From the IMG/VR virus record IMGVR_UViG_3300046507_000667, positions 62,001 to 126,000 of that record: a stretch of DNA of 64,000 bases. The stretch is one strand, 5' to 3'. Each line of letters starts with the position of its first letter. Positions within the stretch are counted from its first letter, which is position 1. Shown piece by piece: positions 9,420 to 52,079 of this stretch. Below the pieces are notes generated by a model, which saw nothing but the letters and a program-made list of their open reading frames with translations, had not been told where the DNA came from and ran no database searches. The stretch is from a virus. The translations under genes were made by a program, and so were the position numbers.

Positions 9420-10838
9420 TCACGATCTAAAATGTCTTAAAGGGTCAGCACTAGCTTTACCAGCTAGCATATTGGCTAAATTAGTATCGATACCACTTGA
9501 CTGTGGTCCCTTTACCTTATTATTTTTCTGTCCTAGAATCTTAGCTAGCTGGTCTGGTGGTACACCGTCTAGGATCATTTGGGTTAGTTCAGCAAAGTCA
9601 TGATTTTGACCCTTATTAACTGCAGGATCATCCACAACTTTTCGAGTAATAGCATTGAAATTCTTAGCATTTTGAGCAACTTTAGCTCGTGTTCTTAAGA
9701 ATCTACCAATATTATTACCATATCGAACTACATATTTTACGAATAAGTATGAGAATAAGACGTCATCATGCATACCTACTTCGTGGTCAATACGTCCATT
9801 CTTATAGATAAGACCTTTGACATCATCATATAACTCTGGAATTGCTAAAAGCTCAGGTTCATCTGCAACGATTTCTTTAAGAATATCGATCATTAGAGGA
9901 CGTGAGGCTTTATCAGTAGTAATACCATACTTAATACTATCTGTCTTAGTAGCAGGATTATTAGCTGTTTTGTCTTTATCAGCTAATTTATATTCATAGT
10001 AAATATTCTTAGGAATTACATCTAAGAGATTTTCTACCAGACCTTTACCATAACTATTAAATTCAGGGACTACAATACAGTTAGGCAATTCTTCTTGAAC
10101 TAGCTGTGCAATAAGAGAGCTATATACATTAATATCAATAGTATTATGCTTAAATACTGCTACAGGAGCAAAATCTTTTTCAGGATCAGTAATAGTAAAT
10201 GCTGAATTATCTGCATCAAGACCACCTGCAGTATCAACACCCATGAAATAGACTTTCTCTTTCTTTAGTTCTTCATAGAGTACGATAGGGAATTTGAAAG
10301 TACGGATTTCACCAGTACTCTTGATTACCTTCTTGATATCCATATATTTGATACCAATAGGTGTTCTTTTCTTACTATCAATAATATCTAATTGCTCTTC
10401 AGTAAAGACCGAATTATCTGATGATTTTGTCCATTGTAGGTCAATTTCACGTTTGATAATAGCACGGTCATTATTAAGAACACGACATTCTTTCTTATAC
10501 CACTCTTCATCAAGACCTAATTGTTTCCATGTATAAGAAATATACAAGAAGTCATTTGATGAGTTAGTAGCAATGTAATCTTTTAATATATCACGGTCCC
10601 AATCATACATCTCTTCAACGAAGACACAAGCGTTATCTATAAGACCTTTACAGAAAGCGCCCGCCGGATTGTCAATGTTTGAAGGAGTTGTAGAGATAAT
10701 ACGACCGTGTGGTCTACCATGAGCTTCAGCAATTTCAGATACTTTTGAAATAGCTGGACCTGCTGACTTAAAGATAATATCGTTATACTTTAAGAATGCG
10801 AATTCGTCAGGCCAATAGATCGGGATAGACATACCACG
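9420..10838 (-). CDS. terL: terminase large subunit, exon 2 (Walker B and nuclease domain)
   Basis: This exon joins to 15639-16307 to give a 695-aa terminase. It begins RGMSIPIYWPDEFAF, the Walker B strand with the catalytic Asp-Glu pair. The ATPase coupling motif (IISTTPSN) follows, and then the RNase-H-like nuclease domain starting with FMGVDTAGGLDADNSAF, whose Asp is the first metal ligand. The first ATG in this exon (10832) has no ribosome site and would remove part of the Walker B strand, so it is not an independent gene. The last coding base of exon 1 and first base of exon 2 are both codon boundaries. The product is the motor and nuclease that packages DNA into proheads. Confidence 0.9.
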   Translation of the reverse strand, partial: RGMSIPIYWPDEFAFLKYNDIIFKSAGPAISKVSEIAEAHGRPHGRIISTTPSNIDNPAGAFCKGLIDNACVFVEEMYDWDRDILKDYIATNSSNDFLYISYTWKQLGLDEEWYKKECRVLNNDRAIIKREIDLQWTKSSDNSVFTEEQLDIIDSKKRTPIGIKYMDIKKVIKSTGEIRTFKFPIVLYEELKKEKVYFMGVDTAGGLDADNSAFTITDPEKDFAPVAVFKHNTIDINVYSSLIAQLVQEELPNCIVVPEFNSYGKGLVENLLDVIPKNIYYEYKLADKDKTANNPATKTDSIKYGITTDKASRPLMIDILKEIVADEPELLAIPELYDDVKGLIYKNGRIDHEVGMHDDVLFSYLFVKYVVRYGNNIGRFLRTRAKVAQNAKNFNAITRKVVDDPAVNKGQNHDFAELTQMILDGVPPDQLAKILGQKNNKVKGPQSSGIDTNLANMLAGKASADPLRHFRS

Positions 10839-15505: not shown

Positions 15506-15525
15506 TCTGAAGTATTAGTTAATGC

Positions 15526-15638
15526 TTGATGAATTTGCTGCTGATTGCCATAGATACTAATTTACATTTTTCCGGAATGCTAGTTAGGATCTTTACGGGG
15601 TTCCAGCAATTAATAGAATTTATACAGAGCCGTAAGTA
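15526..15638 (-). ncRNA. 5' half of the terminase group I intron (splice site to P6 5' strand)
   Basis: On the minus strand: intron start TACTTACG, guide GCTCTGT pairing with exon ACAGGGT, P4 5' strand in AATTGCTGGAA (15601-15611), P4 3' strand in GGCAATCAGCAGC (15537-15549), then the P6 5' strand ending at 15526. If not spliced, translation of exon 1 would run on to a TAA at 15519-15521, giving a truncated ATPase of 262 aa. Confidence 0.88.
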
Positions 15639-16307
15639 ACCCTGTTTGTCTGCTTGTTCTTCAGAAATTGGCTGACCATTGACGTCGATCTTATTATTAC
15701 GCTGCACACTATGTACTGATTCAAGATTATCAGTATCACCTCTATCTGCTAAGGCATCTTGAATGTATTTAGGTAAATGTAATGTAATATCCTTAAATCG
15801 CTTTAAGTTATTCTTAGCATCACCTAAGCTCTTATTTGCAAAGAGCATATTAGTATTTTTAGTACTAAAGTTATAGATGTAATTTAGTGCTGCTGCAATA
15901 GAAATTGTTTTACCACGCTGACGAGATAGTAAGCATATCAAGTCAAAGTTATTAAAAATTGCCCAAGTAATAGCTAAGTTACCCGGATGCAATTCAAATT
16001 TAACAGTACCACCCGGAGCTACAATCTTTACTACTTCTCTTAGATAGTAGTAAGGATTTTTTGTAATTTCCGTAATGATTTTTGTCTTTTGTAACTCAGT
16101 TAGATTTTTTCTATGAGGATCAATACCTTTTAAACTTTTATCATAGAGTCGTAGAAAGAACTTGTTATTTTTAATACCACGTTCCTTCAAATACTTAAAC
16201 ATCTTGATGAAAGAAAGGTTCTTAGTCTCGGTGTCAATTACATAGTCACCATAGTCCGTTTCCCCATAGATAGCTTTATTGTAAGCTGCTTTACTAAGCG
16301 ATACCAT
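15639..16307 (-). CDS. terL: terminase large subunit, exon 1 (N-terminal ATPase part)
   Basis: Exon 1 encodes 223 residues. The Walker A-like motif LLSRQRGKT is at residues 126-134, the form seen in T4 gp17-type terminases (SRQLGKT). The exon ends ...EEQADKQG and continues in exon 2 with RGMSIPIYWPDEF, which is where large terminases have a Gly-Arg-Gly turn before Walker B. The start has AAAGGAAAGCTT upstream. It is preceded by the terminator of the 16435-17772 gene, so it has its own transcription start. Together with exon 2 it makes a protein of normal length for a jumbo-phage terminase. Confidence 0.88.
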
Positions 16308-40167: not shown

Positions 40168-43100
40168 ATGTCTGTAATTAACCTAGCAAGAATGAATTCT
40201 TCGAAGCTTTACAAGGCTTCTCAGTTACTTATTGTCAACAACTCACGCACTAAGCCAGTTCTTAACCTCTTCTTCGGTAAGGAAGGGACGACTGACAGTC
40301 TCGTTGAGGACGTTAATTATATTCACTTTTCGCCAAATGCGCCGAAGAAAATTTGGTTCCCGGACTATAAACTTAACGTCGCAAACCTAAAGACCTCCAG
40401 AGACCTTACAGTTCGTAATAGTTTCTTCAACGATCTTAAGTCTCATAAGCTTAGCTTCAATAAGGTGAATAACCTAGCTACCATTGATGATAAATGGGCT
40501 AAAAAGCCTATTATTGTAGACCTAAGCAAGTTCCGTGACGAGTACAATCAATACTGTAACGACCATAAGAAGACATATACTACAGGATATCGTTTCCTAA
40601 AGGCTATGCTTCAATTGGTACTTAAAAATCTTCCTACTGGAATGGAAACTCGATTCTTTATTGAGATTCCTTCAGAGCAAGATACATTTATCAAAAGTCT
40701 TAAATATGGTCTAGACCATGACTATAAAGCGCTACATCCAATTTTAAAGGACTATAATGTCATTTTCTACAATCCCAATACAGGGATAGTGTATAAAACT
40801 GACTTTAATAATCCTCAGATGAAGGCAAGAGGCAATATCCTGATTGGTAAGTTTATGCGTATGCATACTACTGGTCTACCAGATGATGCTATTCTTGCTA
40901 ACGATCCAGATATTGAAGTAACAACAGATGCTAATACGCCTACTGAAGATAAGAAGATTGTTGCAGCTACACAAGATGTAGTTCGTGATGAATCAGATAA
41001 AGATCAGAATGGCGATTCAGAGGAAGTTGAAACTACTATTCCAGCTAAGCCTACAGAGCCATTAGATGATGAATCTGATGAATCTGAAGAAGTACAGCCA
41101 GATCAAGTTGCACCAGCAGAAGAAGAGCAACAAGCTCCTCTTGACCTAAGTATGATTCTTAGTACTGCTGAAACTGAAATTAATACTCTTTATGCAGAAA
41201 ATCAAGCATTTCTTAAAAAGCACATGCCTAAACAAGAGGCTGCTTTAAAAGAACTTGAAAAGGAAGCAGATAAGCTTGCTGCAGATAAGACATTGGATCC
41301 ACTAGTGATTAATGATAAGACAATTATCAATGATCACGTTCGTGAAACTACAATGTCATCCATTACAAATGGATACTATAAGAAGCAATTTAAGCGAGAT
41401 GTGCTTAATATTGTAAAAACATTAAATACTGATCCAGAGAATCCAGTAGTCATTACTAAATTTGCAGTCAATGATAGTTCTACAGCTATTAGCCGACTAG
41501 ATGAACTTCATATTGAATTTATTGATAAAAAGTTCAAGAAGCATACTTTCAAAGTAGATGTACCACGTCTAAGTCACGATGGTTTCCTTTATATAAATGG
41601 TAATAAGCAATTTATTAGTAAGCAAGCAACGCTTCTGCCAATTATTAAAGAAGCAGATGATCGAGTTCAGATTACTACCAATTACCAGAAGACCTTCTTA
41701 TTCCGTAAAGGAGATAAGATTAATGGTCAAGTTGATAGAATTCTAAGACTTATTGTAGGTACAAAGTTTGATTCAATTAGTAAAATTCCCGGTAATTCTA
41801 CTGAATCTAACCTTGGATACAATGTATCTATTCCTTATAACTATCTTGCCAAGAAGCTATTCACTGCAAAGTTTAATGGTGCAGAAGGAATTATTTTCTT
41901 CTTTAACCAACAAAATGCAAGAGAAAAAGCTGAAGAAGCTGGTTTTAAGGTTGACTATACAAAGTACAATGTAGTTGGTGCATATTTATTACATGACAAG
42001 GAACAAGATTTAATTCTTGAAGATATCAATGATCGTTCTATTTGGCAATACTATAGACCAAATCAACGCAATGTCAATTCTGGAAAGATTGTAAAACTTG
42101 ATACATCAATTGTAGGATTTCTTACAAGTATTATTTCAGTATCAAAAGATGAATCGCTTCAAACTGCATATCGTGCATTAAAGCCTTCTTTAAGTCTTTC
42201 CTTCACAGAAGTAAAGATTGCAGCAAAAGCTATGGGTCTTGGACCACTTATTGCATCATTCAAGGGTCTCATTCCAGCACTTGATCTTTATCATGTGAAG
42301 TATCATATTGAAGAGAAACGTATTGCTAAAAAAGAAAGTGAAATCATGCTTGCTTTTAAGGATTACTATCTCTACATTGATACAGAATTTGATTCAGCTA
42401 AAGAACTTTATGTAAATAGCTTACTAGCTTTAAATAGTGCTGATTATACTTTAGCAGAAACAACTCGCATGTCACCAATTTTCCTTGAATATTATGAGGA
42501 ATATACTGGTAATCGTAATACAGCTAAGGCTCTTTTGAACTTTGAATCATCAATGATTGATCCGATTACAAAAGAAATCTTAGAAGAAATGAAGCTTCCA
42601 ACAGATTTTCCAGAGCTTCTTCTTGTAGCTAATACGATGCTAGGTGACTATCAGCGTAAGCTTAAGAATGACATGAGTAACTTCCGTTTCCGTGATTCGG
42701 AAGTAATTGCAACAGCAGTCTATAACGTACTCCGTGATTCATTTAATGCTTACAAGCGTACAGTTCGTTCTGGTACAGTACAGCCTATTTCTGCAAAAAA
42801 GGATGAGGTTATTAAGCGCATTCAATCAATGCCTAATGTTGAACCATATTCAACACTTAATCCATTCCTTGAGCTAGAAACTAAAGCAAAATCAACTTTT
42901 AAGGGACCATCTGGATTAAATCCAACATATCCTTAATATGTTTTAGGGTATGTTTTATGAGAAAAGCATTAACAACAGAAAAATTTCAAGAAAATGTAAA
43001 TACTATTTTTGGAGCTGATACATATACTGTAATTTCAGAGTATACCAAATCTAGTGGATATATTTCAATTAAGCATTCAAAATGTGGAAATACATTTGAT

Positions 43101-45533
43101 ATAGTTGCCAATGATTTTACCAAAGAGTCTAAAAGGGCTAGATTTTATGATACATGTCCAGCATGTAGAACTTCTAAAAGAAGTCCTTTGGATAAGGTAA
43201 AAGAAGATATCAGAATTGCTACTAAAGATAGATTATTACTTTTAGAATATGGTGGAACAACACATACCCCATCTAAATTTAAATGTAAAATCTGTAATTA
43301 TGATGATATCAAAATATCTACGCATAGTTTATTAGGAAATTTAAAGTCAAGATCAAATTCTAATTCATGGGGATGTGCTGTTTGTTCAAAAAAGAAACAG
43401 AAAACTACTCAAGAATTTAATAAAGAAATTGATCAACTTTTTAATGGTAATATTGCACTTATTTCAGAATATGTAAATGTAGGGACTTATGTATCTTTGA
43501 AATGTAATAAATGTACATATGAATGGAATACCATGCCATCAACTATTCTAGGCGGATCCCAGTGTCCAGCATGCTTAAGAAGTTTTAGAGATTCTAAGCA
43601 AATTAGAAGAGTGATTGAATTTCTTGATAAATATGAAGTACCTTTTGAAAGAGAAGTAACTTTTGAAGGTCTAGTTTATAAAAAGCAACTGTATTTTGAT
43701 TTTTGTATTGAAACAGAAGATACTTATTTCTTGATTGAATTCGATGGACAGCAGCATTTTAGAGGCTGGCAAGGTAATGAAGATAATCTAAATGAAAACC
43801 AAATTCGAGATAATATCAAGAATGATTTTTGTAAAGATAATGATCTTCCTTTACTTCGTTTGCATTATAAAATGACTCTGTCTGAAATTGATAAGGCTAT
43901 TTATGATTTTCTCTTCAGTCCAGAATAAACTTCTTTAATTGCTGGAAACCCTCTAACAAAGGCAATCAGCAGCGAAGCCCTTAATTGGGAACGTTCAACG
44001 ACTATTATGTACTTATCAAATGATAAGGAAATAGGAAGCACCTAATTAGGTGAAGATATAGTCTATTCTTATATGAAAATATAAGTTATGAGCTAATGAC
44101 TCATAGTAAATATAAAAGTAAATTCAGATGATGCATATACGCCTGAAATTCGTGCATATGATAAGTCAATGCTAGGTGTGTATGGTATTTATACGCCTAT
44201 TTCATCACAAGTTGGTGTAAGTCGTGGTCTTGTAATGAATCCACGCTATCATTCAACTCGTGGCTATCTAAAGGATATGGATCTAAAGACTGCTCGTGCT
44301 GATAATTTATTCACTGCGGCAGAACTTCTAAATGTCTTTACACCAAAGCATGCTGATAGTCCTCGTGCTATTATGGCTTCAGTACAAGGTCGTCACTTGA
44401 CACCAACAAAAGTACAGGATCCTTACCTAGTTGGTAGTGGTGTTGATAAAGCACTTCCGCATATGGTTGGTCAAGACTTCGCCTTTAAAGCAACAGATGA
44501 TGGCACAGTTATTAAGATTGACCAGAAGAAAGAACTAGCAATTCTACAATATAAGAATGGCGAGAAAGCAGCAATTGATTTCTCACCAAAACCAGCTAAA
44601 AATAGTGGTGGTGGCTTCTTTATTCAGAATAAGCTTGATCTTAATGCAGAAGTTAAGGTAGGCTATAAATTCAAGAAAGGTGATATTCTTGCTAAGGATG
44701 ATAACTTCTTCAAGGATATGCTAGATGGTTCTACTGGCTTTGCGGCTGGTCGTCTATCAAAGCTTGCTGTTCTCGCTCTACCTGAGACATTCGAAGATTC
44801 GTGTGTTATTACACAACAAGTTGTAAGTGATATGTCATCGGATATTATTAATGAACGTGAAGTAGTTTTAAAGAAAAATTCACGTATCATTAGTGTGGCT
44901 AACGTTGGTGATGAAGTTGAAGTTGATACACCACTAGTTGTATTCGAAGAAGTAGGTTCTGATGAAACATTAGCTGTTGCTGCTTTAGAAAAGCTTGATG
45001 CACAAACTAAAGGCACTATCAGTGAACTAGCTCGTTCGACTGCAAAGTCAAAGTTTGCTGGTAAGATTTTCGCTATTCGTATTTATTACAATGCAGAATT
45101 AGATGAAATGCATCCAACGCTAAAGAATATTGTCGAGCAGTACAAAGACAAATATGATTCTAAGGCAAAGATCATTCAGACACTGAAGAAGGATGAAATT
45201 ATTCAGCAACCTTCAACTGAAAAGCATAATGGTGAAAAGCTATTAGGTAATGATGTTGATGGTGTTGTTATCAAGTTCTTCATCATGCATGATGATAAGA
45301 TGGCTATTGGTTCAAAGGTAACTGCATTCACTTCACTAAAGTGTATTATTGCAGAGACTATTCCAGAAGGAAAGGAACCATATACAGAGTACAATAAGGA
45401 TGAAGAACTATCAATGTTCCTAAGTCCATTATCTATTGTCTCTCGTATGACTACTGACTTCTATCTCTTAGGCTTTAGTAATAAAGTTATTATTGAACTA
45501 GAGAATCAAGTATTAGATCTTCTAGAAGAATAA
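40168..45533 (+). CDS. RNA polymerase beta subunit, N-terminal piece (two exons, spliced 1,384 aa)
   Basis: Proposed join 40168-42930 and 44142-45533. Exon 1 includes a very acidic loop at about residues 255-330 (SDESEEVQPDQVAPAEEEQQ) and ends GPSGLNPTY. Exon 2 begins PEIRAYDKSMLGVYGIYTP, which matches the [21 protein letters not shown] segment of bacterial beta. Later LSPLSIVSRM matches LNPLGVPSRMN. The rest of beta (MYMLKL and GEMEVWAL segments) is encoded at 3040-4217, so this is the larger of two beta chains. AAGGAAGATATATC precedes the ATG. Exon-2 ATG 44169 has no ribosome site and should not be taken as a separate gene. Confidence 0.88.
42931..44141 (+). ncRNA. group I intron in the RNA polymerase beta gene, with endonuclease gene
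   Basis: 5' splice site after exon CATAT (42930), pairing with GTATG (42950-42954) and CC/GG inside. P4 strands in AATTGCTGGAA (43937-43947) and GGCAATCAGCAGC (43961-43973). P7 from GTTCAACGACTATT (43993-44006) and GATATAGTC (44055-44063). P9 CTTATAT/ATATAAG. The exon after G44141 begins CCTGAAA, which pairs with TTTTAGG beside the guide (P10, 7 pairs). Both splice points are codon boundaries. The endonuclease gene fills the region between P1 and P4. Confidence 0.9.
42957..43928 (+). CDS. intron-encoded homing endonuclease with zinc modules and Vsr-like nuclease, 323 aa
   Basis: Three Cys-rich modules (KHSKCGNTFDIVANDF..CPAC; FKCKICN..CAVC; LKCNKCTYEW..CPAC) resemble the zinc-binding repeats of DUF723-type homing endonucleases. 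The C-terminal 75 residues (KKQLYFDFCIE, then FLIEFDGQQHF, then LPLLRLHY) are the EDxHD/Vsr-like nuclease fold known from I-Bth0305I, with Asp, Glu and His in place. The gene lies inside the intron at its expected position. It would cut intron-less beta genes and spread the intron. Family call is from motifs. Confidence 0.85.
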   Translation: MRKALTTEKFQENVNTIFGADTYTVISEYTKSSGYISIKHSKCGNTFDIVANDFTKESKRARFYDTCPACRTSKRSPLDKVKEDIRIATKDRLLLLEYGGTTHTPSKFKCKICNYDDIKISTHSLLGNLKSRSNSNSWGCAVCSKKKQKTTQEFNKEIDQLFNGNIALISEYVNVGTYVSLKCNKCTYEWNTMPSTILGGSQCPACLRSFRDSKQIRRVIEFLDKYEVPFEREVTFEGLVYKKQLYFDFCIETEDTYFLIEFDGQQHFRGWQGNEDNLNENQIRDNIKNDFCKDNDLPLLRLHYKMTLSEIDKAIYDFLFSPE

Positions 45534-50707: not shown

Positions 50708-50742
50708 ACCCTAACTCTCACTTCCGAGGGTTAGGGTTCTTT
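50708..50742 (+). terminator. intrinsic terminator after 50383-50700
   Basis: ACCCTAACTC pairs with GAGGGTTAGGGT, followed by TCTTTC. Confidence 0.82.
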
Positions 50743-50758: not shown

Positions 50759-51190
50759 ATGGAAAACAATACTCGTCGTAAACGTCAGTATCCCTTTGCT
50801 CTCAATATGGAATTGATTGATATGGAATTTTTGATTGATTCTATCTTAGATCAAGTCTGGCATCGTCGTGTTGAAATTGTTCCTGATTACATGCCTCCTT
50901 TTCCGAGCGATGATACGAAGCCTAAGTGTATTGTCCGCTATAAGACTGAAAGTGGTAATTATACTTATCTTCGTTATGGTCGTGGTCCGCTTCCTGATTA
51001 CTTCTGGGATCTCTATGGTGATGACTTCCATCAACCGGAATGTGCATTGCTGTGTATTGCAAAGGCACCCGCTCCTCGTGGCGTAGATACCTATCCAGCA
51101 ATGGATAATGGTGTATATTATGATATGCAAGATCGCAATGAAGCACGTCGTGAAAAGCATGGCATTCAGCAAGAAGCAAAACCGAACTAA
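50759..51190 (+). CDS. unknown protein, 143 aa
   Basis: ATG at 50759 is used; a GTG 6 nt upstream is possible. The product is Pro/Asp/Tyr-rich (DYMPPFPSDDTKPKCIVRYK) and has a Trp-Asp-Leu-Tyr-Gly-Asp motif. No membrane segment and no family. Confidence 0.78.
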   Translation: MENNTRRKRQYPFALNMELIDMEFLIDSILDQVWHRRVEIVPDYMPPFPSDDTKPKCIVRYKTESGNYTYLRYGRGPLPDYFWDLYGDDFHQPECALLCIAKAPAPRGVDTYPAMDNGVYYDMQDRNEARREKHGIQQEAKPN

Positions 51191-51270: not shown

Positions 51271-51414
51271 ATGCCTTGGATTTATGACCGTGCACATTAT
51301 ACTAAGCAGCAGAGATTGAAATCTATCGGTAGATTTTTCGGTGGACTTCTTATTACTATGCTTGTAGCATCGTTTCTTCATTCACTTTATAATATGGCTG
51401 CATTGCTAAAATGA
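51271..51414 (+). CDS. small single-pass membrane protein, 47 aa
   Basis: ATG at 51271 follows GGAGTAAGGA. A basic, aromatic N-terminus (YDRAHYTKQQRLKSIGR) is followed by one membrane segment (FFGGLLITMLVASFLHSLY). Its stop overlaps the start of the pilin-like gene (ATGA), so the two are translated together and may work together. Confidence 0.75.
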   Translation: MPWIYDRAHYTKQQRLKSIGRFFGGLLITMLVASFLHSLYNMAALLK

Positions 51415-51542
51415 AAAGTATTCGAAAGCAAAAAGGTTTCACCCTCATTGAAATTACCGTAGTGCTTGGTGGTTTGGGCGCTCTTGCTGCAGTTTGTGGT
51501 GTGCTTTATATGGCTGCACATTTCATCAGCAAATGGTGGTAA
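51411..51542 (+). CDS. pilin-like microprotein with prepilin signal, 43 aa
   Basis: The sequence RKQKGFTLIEITVVLGG is a classic type III (prepilin) signal: basic leader of 9 residues ending in Gly, cleavage before Phe, and Glu at position 5 of the mature part, then a hydrophobic helix. After cleavage only 34 residues would remain, with no globular pilin head. The host prepilin peptidase would probably process it. A headless pilin could enter or block the host type IV pilus or type II secretion machinery, for example to exclude other phages. The motif is clear; the role is inferred. Confidence 0.72.
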   Translation: MKSIRKQKGFTLIEITVVLGGLGALAAVCGVLYMAAHFISKWW

Positions 51543-51548
51543 ATAAAA

Positions 51549-51911
51549 ATGAACGATAATATCTATACCCCTCGCATTTGCATTAACCTCATTCAACGTA
51601 AGCCTACAAATGGTGTCAATACTGCAGTAGTAATTCCTTATCGGGATTACGAAATCAGTATTGGTATGGATGATAGTTGTGGAGCCATGGAAAATCTTGG
51701 TCGCTCTGATCTTATCATTATGAAAAATGGTAAGAATGTAACTGGTGATTTCTTTGCCGGTTATACCAAGGGAACTATCATTACTGCAACTGCAGCCCAT
51801 TTGAAGATTATGATGGACGCAATTGACCATCATTATCGAAATAAGGATTCGTTCTTTAAGACTAAAATCGAAATTCCAAATCCAGATAATCAGGACTTGG
51901 TGATCCGATAA
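51549..51911 (+). CDS. unknown protein, 120 aa
   Basis: A 120-codon gene 6 nt after the pilin-like gene, so in the same transcript. It is mixed alpha/beta (TAVVIPYRDYEISIGMDDSC) without a membrane segment and ends in a Pro/Asn turn. No family is recognised. Confidence 0.8.
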   Translation: MNDNIYTPRICINLIQRKPTNGVNTAVVIPYRDYEISIGMDDSCGAMENLGRSDLIIMKNGKNVTGDFFAGYTKGTIITATAAHLKIMMDAIDHHYRNKDSFFKTKIEIPNPDNQDLVIR

Positions 51912-51921
51912 CTCGAAAGTC

Positions 51922-52041
51922 ATGTATAGCAAGAGCAATAGAAATAGTCTTAATACTACTGACATAGTAATTCTTTCTAGTTGGGCTGTAGTTTTAATTA
52001 TATTTAGTTTTACTACAGCTAAATTGCTTGTCAGTATTTAA
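51922..52041 (+). CDS. small membrane protein, 39 aa
   Basis: ATG at 51922 opens 39 codons: a polar Ser/Asn N-terminus and one hydrophobic segment (DIVILSSWAVVLIIFSFTTA). It fills the gap before the terminator. It is the third membrane-type microprotein in this short operon. Confidence 0.6.
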   Translation: MYSKSNRNSLNTTDIVILSSWAVVLIIFSFTTAKLLVSI

Positions 52042-52051
52042 TCTGAAATTA

Positions 52052-52079
52052 CCCTTACAATACTTCGGTATTGTAAGGG
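52052..52079 (+). terminator. terminator of the pilin-like operon
   Basis: CCCTTACAATA-CTTCG-GTATTGTAAGGG hairpin with UUCG-type loop; tail AGATTAAACTTCTTT. Confidence 0.8.

Follow-up and report, generated by a model that had tools for sequence, protein, structure and literature searches.

The DNA analyzed here, a 64,000-nucleotide stretch (hereafter the window) of a 249-kb virus record, raises the question of what a virus might do with a protein that bears the signal of a pilin and lacks the domain that defines one. The phage origin proposed in the initial annotation is borne out by a tail sheath 53% identical to that of the Yersinia jumbo phage phiR1-37, and the ORF with a prepilin signal to which it had drawn attention lies exactly where it was placed (Table 1). 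The encoded protein (MKSIRKQKGFTLIEITVVLGGLGALAAVCGVLYMAAHFISKWW) presents the class III prepilin signal of pilins and pseudopilins, composed of a charged leader, Gly(-1), Phe(+1), Glu(+5) and a hydrophobic stretch, and the three residues singled out previously correspond to Gly9, Phe10 and Glu14. It scores above the cut-offs of both Pfam N_methyl (PF07963; 23.4 bits for a cut-off of 21.2) and NCBIfam TIGR02532 (19.1 bits for 16.3) and is the sole N_methyl match in the 249-kb record, while a looser search for the motif plus a helix returned one match in the window, where Markov-random sequence would give 0.2 per 64 kb. AlphaFold2 predicts a single helix spanning residues 12-42 (mean pLDDT 80), and the C-terminal globular head that should follow the N-terminal helix is absent from this 43-aa product, in which the predicted helix runs to residue 42. 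Having the signal without the head, the protein is not classed here as a pilin. Its mature part does comprise 34 residues, as had been noted, but it had been described as consisting of the assembly helix only, a description that missed a conserved tail at the C-terminus.

The gene belongs to a unit delimited by two hairpins and sits just upstream of nrdB (Pfam PF00268). Because its start overlaps the stop of the preceding ORF and it has no Shine-Dalgarno of its own, its translation is likely to be coupled to that of the upstream 47-aa ORF. The annotated operon with two other single-pass microproteins is thus partly correct: both exist, but the 120-aa gene intervening before the second shows no TM segment. 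A search for relatives of the 143-aa ORF heading the unit gave none, and no relative of the 120-aa product was found in IMG/VR. In phages with a close nrdB there is no microprotein beside that gene and, therefore, the microprotein is not fixed at this site. Among the contigs surveyed, one of 6.3 kb (L007) presents nrdB matches on both strands and is probably a palindromic assembly artefact. Elsewhere in the window, two long ORFs on the plus strand (40168-42936 and 44169-45533) seem by eye to be parts of one RNA polymerase subunit, and they are separated by a 323-aa ORF (42957-43928, plus strand) that weakly matches a treble-clef family (DUF4379) and has the look of a homing endonuclease inserted in the subunit gene. 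On the minus strand, two ORFs about 4.7 kb apart (9420-10832 and 15519-16307) resemble by eye the ATPase-like and nuclease-like halves of a terminase large subunit, with no Pfam match.

Table 1. Features of the gene unit containing the microprotein (window coordinates).
Feature	Position	Strand	Remarks
Terminator-like RNA hairpin	50708..50737	+	Upstream boundary of the unit
143-aa ORF	50759..51190	+	Head of the unit
47-aa single-TM microprotein	51271..51414	+	Stop overlaps start of the next ORF by 4 nt (ATGA)
43-aa single-pass microprotein	51411..51542	+	Leader MKSIRKQKG, prepilin motif GFTLIE, TM helix, C-terminal tail HFISKWW
Leader peptide	51411..51437	+	Predicted prepilin peptidase cleavage after Gly9; Pfam/NCBIfam matches, sequence
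Codons of conserved tail YMAAHFISKWW	51507..51539	+	End exactly at the stop codon; DNA-pattern scans
120-aa ORF, no TM	51549..51911	+	Next gene after the 43-aa ORF
39-aa single-TM microprotein	51922..52041	+	
Perfect 12-bp hairpin, UUCG loop	about 52052..52079	+	Downstream boundary of the unit; z = -5.0

The first relative to be identified, annotated as a hypothetical protein in the T4-like Aeromonas phage Ahp1_CNU-2021, is organised in the same way and ends in HFVTKYW, and the second is a protein of the T5-like Aeromonas phage TS3 ending in HFIAKFW, the true reading frame of which carries no gene call. A scan of IMG/VR using both conserved ends yielded three more proteins combining the prepilin motif with the tail, together with two that have the tail without the motif (L024 and L026), as well as longer pilin-like sequences in which the tail is missing; hence, the tail was chosen as the better signature. 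In one phage (L060; G105:C1:49803-49874) a tail-bearing protein coexists with a second pilin-like ORF of greater length (open frame of 103 aa), which scores 40 bits against N_methyl. Searches with tblastn against an annotated phage collection are insensitive for such short hydrophobic queries, and DNA patterns were used instead. The pattern HFI[..]K[FYW]W-stop matched 76 stretches of viral contigs. In about 66 of them the match closes a short ORF whose tail immediately follows a hydrophobic helix, and the remainder are short chance frames. When applied to bacterial and archaeal genomes (257 Gb), the same pattern matched 25 stretches, only one of them a true TM microprotein (L108), located in a 106-kb contig binned as Uhrbacteria that is possibly a mis-binned phage contig. 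Given this single match, mimicry of a host protein bearing the same tail was considered and found unsupported.

Several features not imposed by the first scan recur among the members, such as Tyr or Trp at position -11 (54/62 members, whereas these two residues make up 3.8% of the helix) and, commonly, Val at -10 and Ala at -9. Three relaxed scans were then anchored on the Tyr at -11. Dropping the stop requirement gave 18 new true matches, all ending exactly at the Trp (with TGA stops), and no extended member; dropping the His gave no new true member; and dropping the Lys gave one, with Arg in its place. The tail is strictly C-terminal, and its His and Lys are near-invariant. Altogether, the DNA-pattern scans reveal 79 distinct single-TM phage proteins of 29-60 residues sharing the tail [YW]VAxHFI[STAG]K[FYW]W-stop, although most were gathered by requiring the tail, so that the edges of the family are set by the search. 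Under a definition combining a single TM segment with [YW]xxxHF[IV]xK[FYW]W directly followed by a stop, the window protein, ending in YMAAHFISKWW-stop, is a member. A pN/pS of 0.27 in a subgroup of ten sequences points to a translated protein under purifying selection. The phage contigs that carry the tail vary in size, reaching 429 kb in one record. Profile searches of Pfam, PHROGs, NCBIfam, PADLOC and the PDB left the tail unmatched, a literature search with the word 'HFISK' gave nothing for it and no paper describing it was found. The tail therefore appears to define an undescribed, phage-specific family of single-helix membrane microproteins.

Within this family the prepilin signal, with an acidic +5 residue required, is present in 21 of the 79 members and in none of 162 control proteins, namely the other TM micro-ORFs with a Shine-Dalgarno on the same contigs (Fisher p = 9e-12, an optimistic value because some members are closely related). 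The N-terminus is pilin-like in 24 members, 21 of which keep the acidic +5 residue within the membrane helix, and three further cases resemble decayed signals (L098, GFTIVG; L039, GITLVA; L024/L029, GLTLIG). In an apparently homologous trio (L039, L041 and L098) much of the remaining helix and the tail are alike, whereas the prepilin motif differs, suggesting that the signal can be eroded, or acquired, with the tail kept in place. Since about 58 of the 79 members, including a subgroup resembling Bacteroidota phages, have the tail and no signal, the prepilin N-terminus seems to be an optional module, taking the place of an ordinary N-terminal anchor in about a quarter of the members, and the shared function most probably lies in the tail. 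For the members that do carry the signal, its enrichment and the retention of the acidic residue make it plausible that prepilin peptidase processes them and that they dock in a type IV pilus or type II secretion (T2SS) machine.

The distribution of the signal among carriers is in line with the capabilities of their presumed hosts. The commonest non-prepilin subgroup, which lacks the signal altogether, immediately precedes a terminase large subunit gene whose product is 49% identical to that of Flavobacterium phage 11b, and prepilin peptidase (PF06750) was detected in 31 of 36 Gammaproteobacteria but in 2 of the 99 Bacteroidota genomes searched. These data agree with use of the signal being confined to hosts able to process it, the link to hosts consisting of the terminase similarity of that subgroup and the two Aeromonas phages. 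No such microprotein precedes the related terminase of known phages (Flavobacterium 11b, Cellulophaga phi10:1 and others), which indicates that this is an accessory gene. Two contigs (L081 and L090) carry two tail proteins each, and at about eleven loci, including that of the window, another single-TM microprotein lies just upstream, often with a 4-nt overlap; hence, the active unit may be a pair of microproteins. The two tail proteins of L090 are adjacent, an arrangement that suggests hetero-oligomers. Directly upstream of four prepilin-type members (L033, L047, L135 and L143) there are related-looking single-TM microproteins of 37-43 aa, with a TM segment followed by a basic tail, which are a possible partner gene.

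The window protein shares with type IV pilins and pseudopilins (PF07963; TIGR02532; GspG/GspH) the leader, Gly(-1), Phe(+1), Glu(+5) and the hydrophobic helix, but the tail family has no C-terminal head, adds a conserved tail after the helix and mostly lacks the signal. A prepilin-type N-terminus like that of the window protein is also found in the phage families phrog_3433 (the cyanophage 'pilin'), phrog_13280 and phrog_10597; the phrog_3433-type protein of cyanophage ACG-2014f, unlike the window protein, continues beyond the helix (123 aa), and the matches to the other two end before the tail. Tip (D3112) and Aqs1 are likewise small phage proteins that stop pilus assembly, but they are not known to be single-helix membrane proteins; Aqs1 reportedly acts on the ATPase PilB. 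Tip acts on PilB as well (PMC8764522). The closest functional parallel is PfsE (PA0721) of the Pseudomonas filamentous phage Pf4, a single N-in helix of 30 residues that binds the platform protein PilC, prevents both type IV piliation and superinfection, and loses its activity when tagged at the C-terminus (PMC8764522). Like PfsE, the window protein is a phage microprotein with an aromatic cluster; its predicted fold is a single helix, and its prepilin signal suggests an N-in orientation. PfsE differs in being encoded by a filamentous prophage, in having no reported prepilin signal and in its YAWGW motif inside the helix (PMC8764522), a motif absent from the window protein. By analogy, the window protein plausibly works like PfsE with no shared motif, the most plausible mode of action being a block, in the manner of PfsE, on a host membrane machine, in which the tail may grip a host membrane component.

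On these grounds we propose, with moderate confidence, that the window microprotein loses its leader to a host peptidase and that its tail, on the periplasmic face, blocks a conserved inner-membrane target in superinfection exclusion or host takeover. Prepilin peptidase has its active site on the cytoplasmic side, and prepilin-type members would accordingly be inserted N-in/C-out. The window protein would thus enter the inner membrane in this orientation, the host prepilin peptidase would cut off its nine-residue leader, and the 34-residue helix would remain in the membrane with the tail at the periplasmic surface, where it would bind and block the target during infection. In prepilin-type members, the N-terminus would in addition direct the tail towards the machinery of type IV pili or T2SS. 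The topology of the 58 non-prepilin members is not fixed by N-terminal charge, which is positive in 32, neutral in 18 and negative in eight. A broader version of this proposal, which we put forward only tentatively, is that YVAxHFISKxW-COOH is a universal C-terminal ligand, displayed at the membrane face, for one conserved host inner-membrane protein, shared by unrelated virulent phages of several bacterial phyla, about a quarter of which deliver it via a pilin-like helix matured by host prepilin peptidase.

The initial annotation had instead envisaged a headless pilin that would join the pilin pool and stop pilus growth or type II secretion, thereby blocking pilus-dependent phages. In a more detailed form of this model, the processed protein would dock via Glu5 and cap or stall the type IV pilus or the T2SS endopilus. 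The signal on which this idea was built is real, clearing the Pfam and NCBIfam cut-offs, and it is enriched in a family in which pilin-like members tend to keep the acidic +5 residue; in addition, MshA and PilA in the PDB align with the N-terminal half of the prepilin-type profile, and the two cultured relatives come from Aeromonas phages. Yet the same tail occurs without the signal in 58 of the 79 members, some of them in Bacteroidota-type phages whose presumed hosts rarely encode the peptidase, and it outlasts the signal in L039 and L098. Blocking pilus growth is therefore excluded as the general function of the family, and we consider this explanation unlikely overall, even if the prepilin-type branch could have specialised in poisoning pili. 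The opposite view, that the motif is a look-alike in an uncleaved signal anchor and the protein an ordinary N-in anchor carrying the tail, fits the lack of the motif in most relatives and the short span (15-30 residues) of the PHROG and Pfam matches; it is hard to reconcile with the absence of the motif from all control micro-ORFs and with a buried acidic residue that would be costly unless used, and we regard it as very improbable.

A small holin, antiholin or lysis-timing protein, the short helix of which would oligomerise in the inner membrane late in infection, is slightly easier to entertain, but still improbable. Size and the single TM segment fit, lysis genes are often near the terminase large subunit gene, as is the commonest non-prepilin subgroup, and Pfam adds single S11 and M23 peptidases among the neighbours. 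Nonetheless, the neighbours of family members belong mostly to replication, nucleotide metabolism and packaging (DNA polymerase, helicase, MazG, Erf, thymidylate synthase, endonuclease VII and terminase), no lysis family of PHROGs is among the neighbour matches listed, and the window gene adjoins nrdB, the M15 peptidase that might act as endolysin lying about 3.6 kb away on the opposite strand.

The preferred reading, a tail that blocks an inner-membrane target, has implications beyond this locus. A tail so strict, present in phage contigs and hardly ever seen in cellular genomes, points to a conserved bacterial target of phage attack. With only 29-60 residues, its carriers can be missed by annotation, as illustrated by the TS3 copy. 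The prepilin-type branch would represent headless pilins with a family-wide signature, and it bears on whether phages employ host prepilin peptidase to mature a host-takeover factor.
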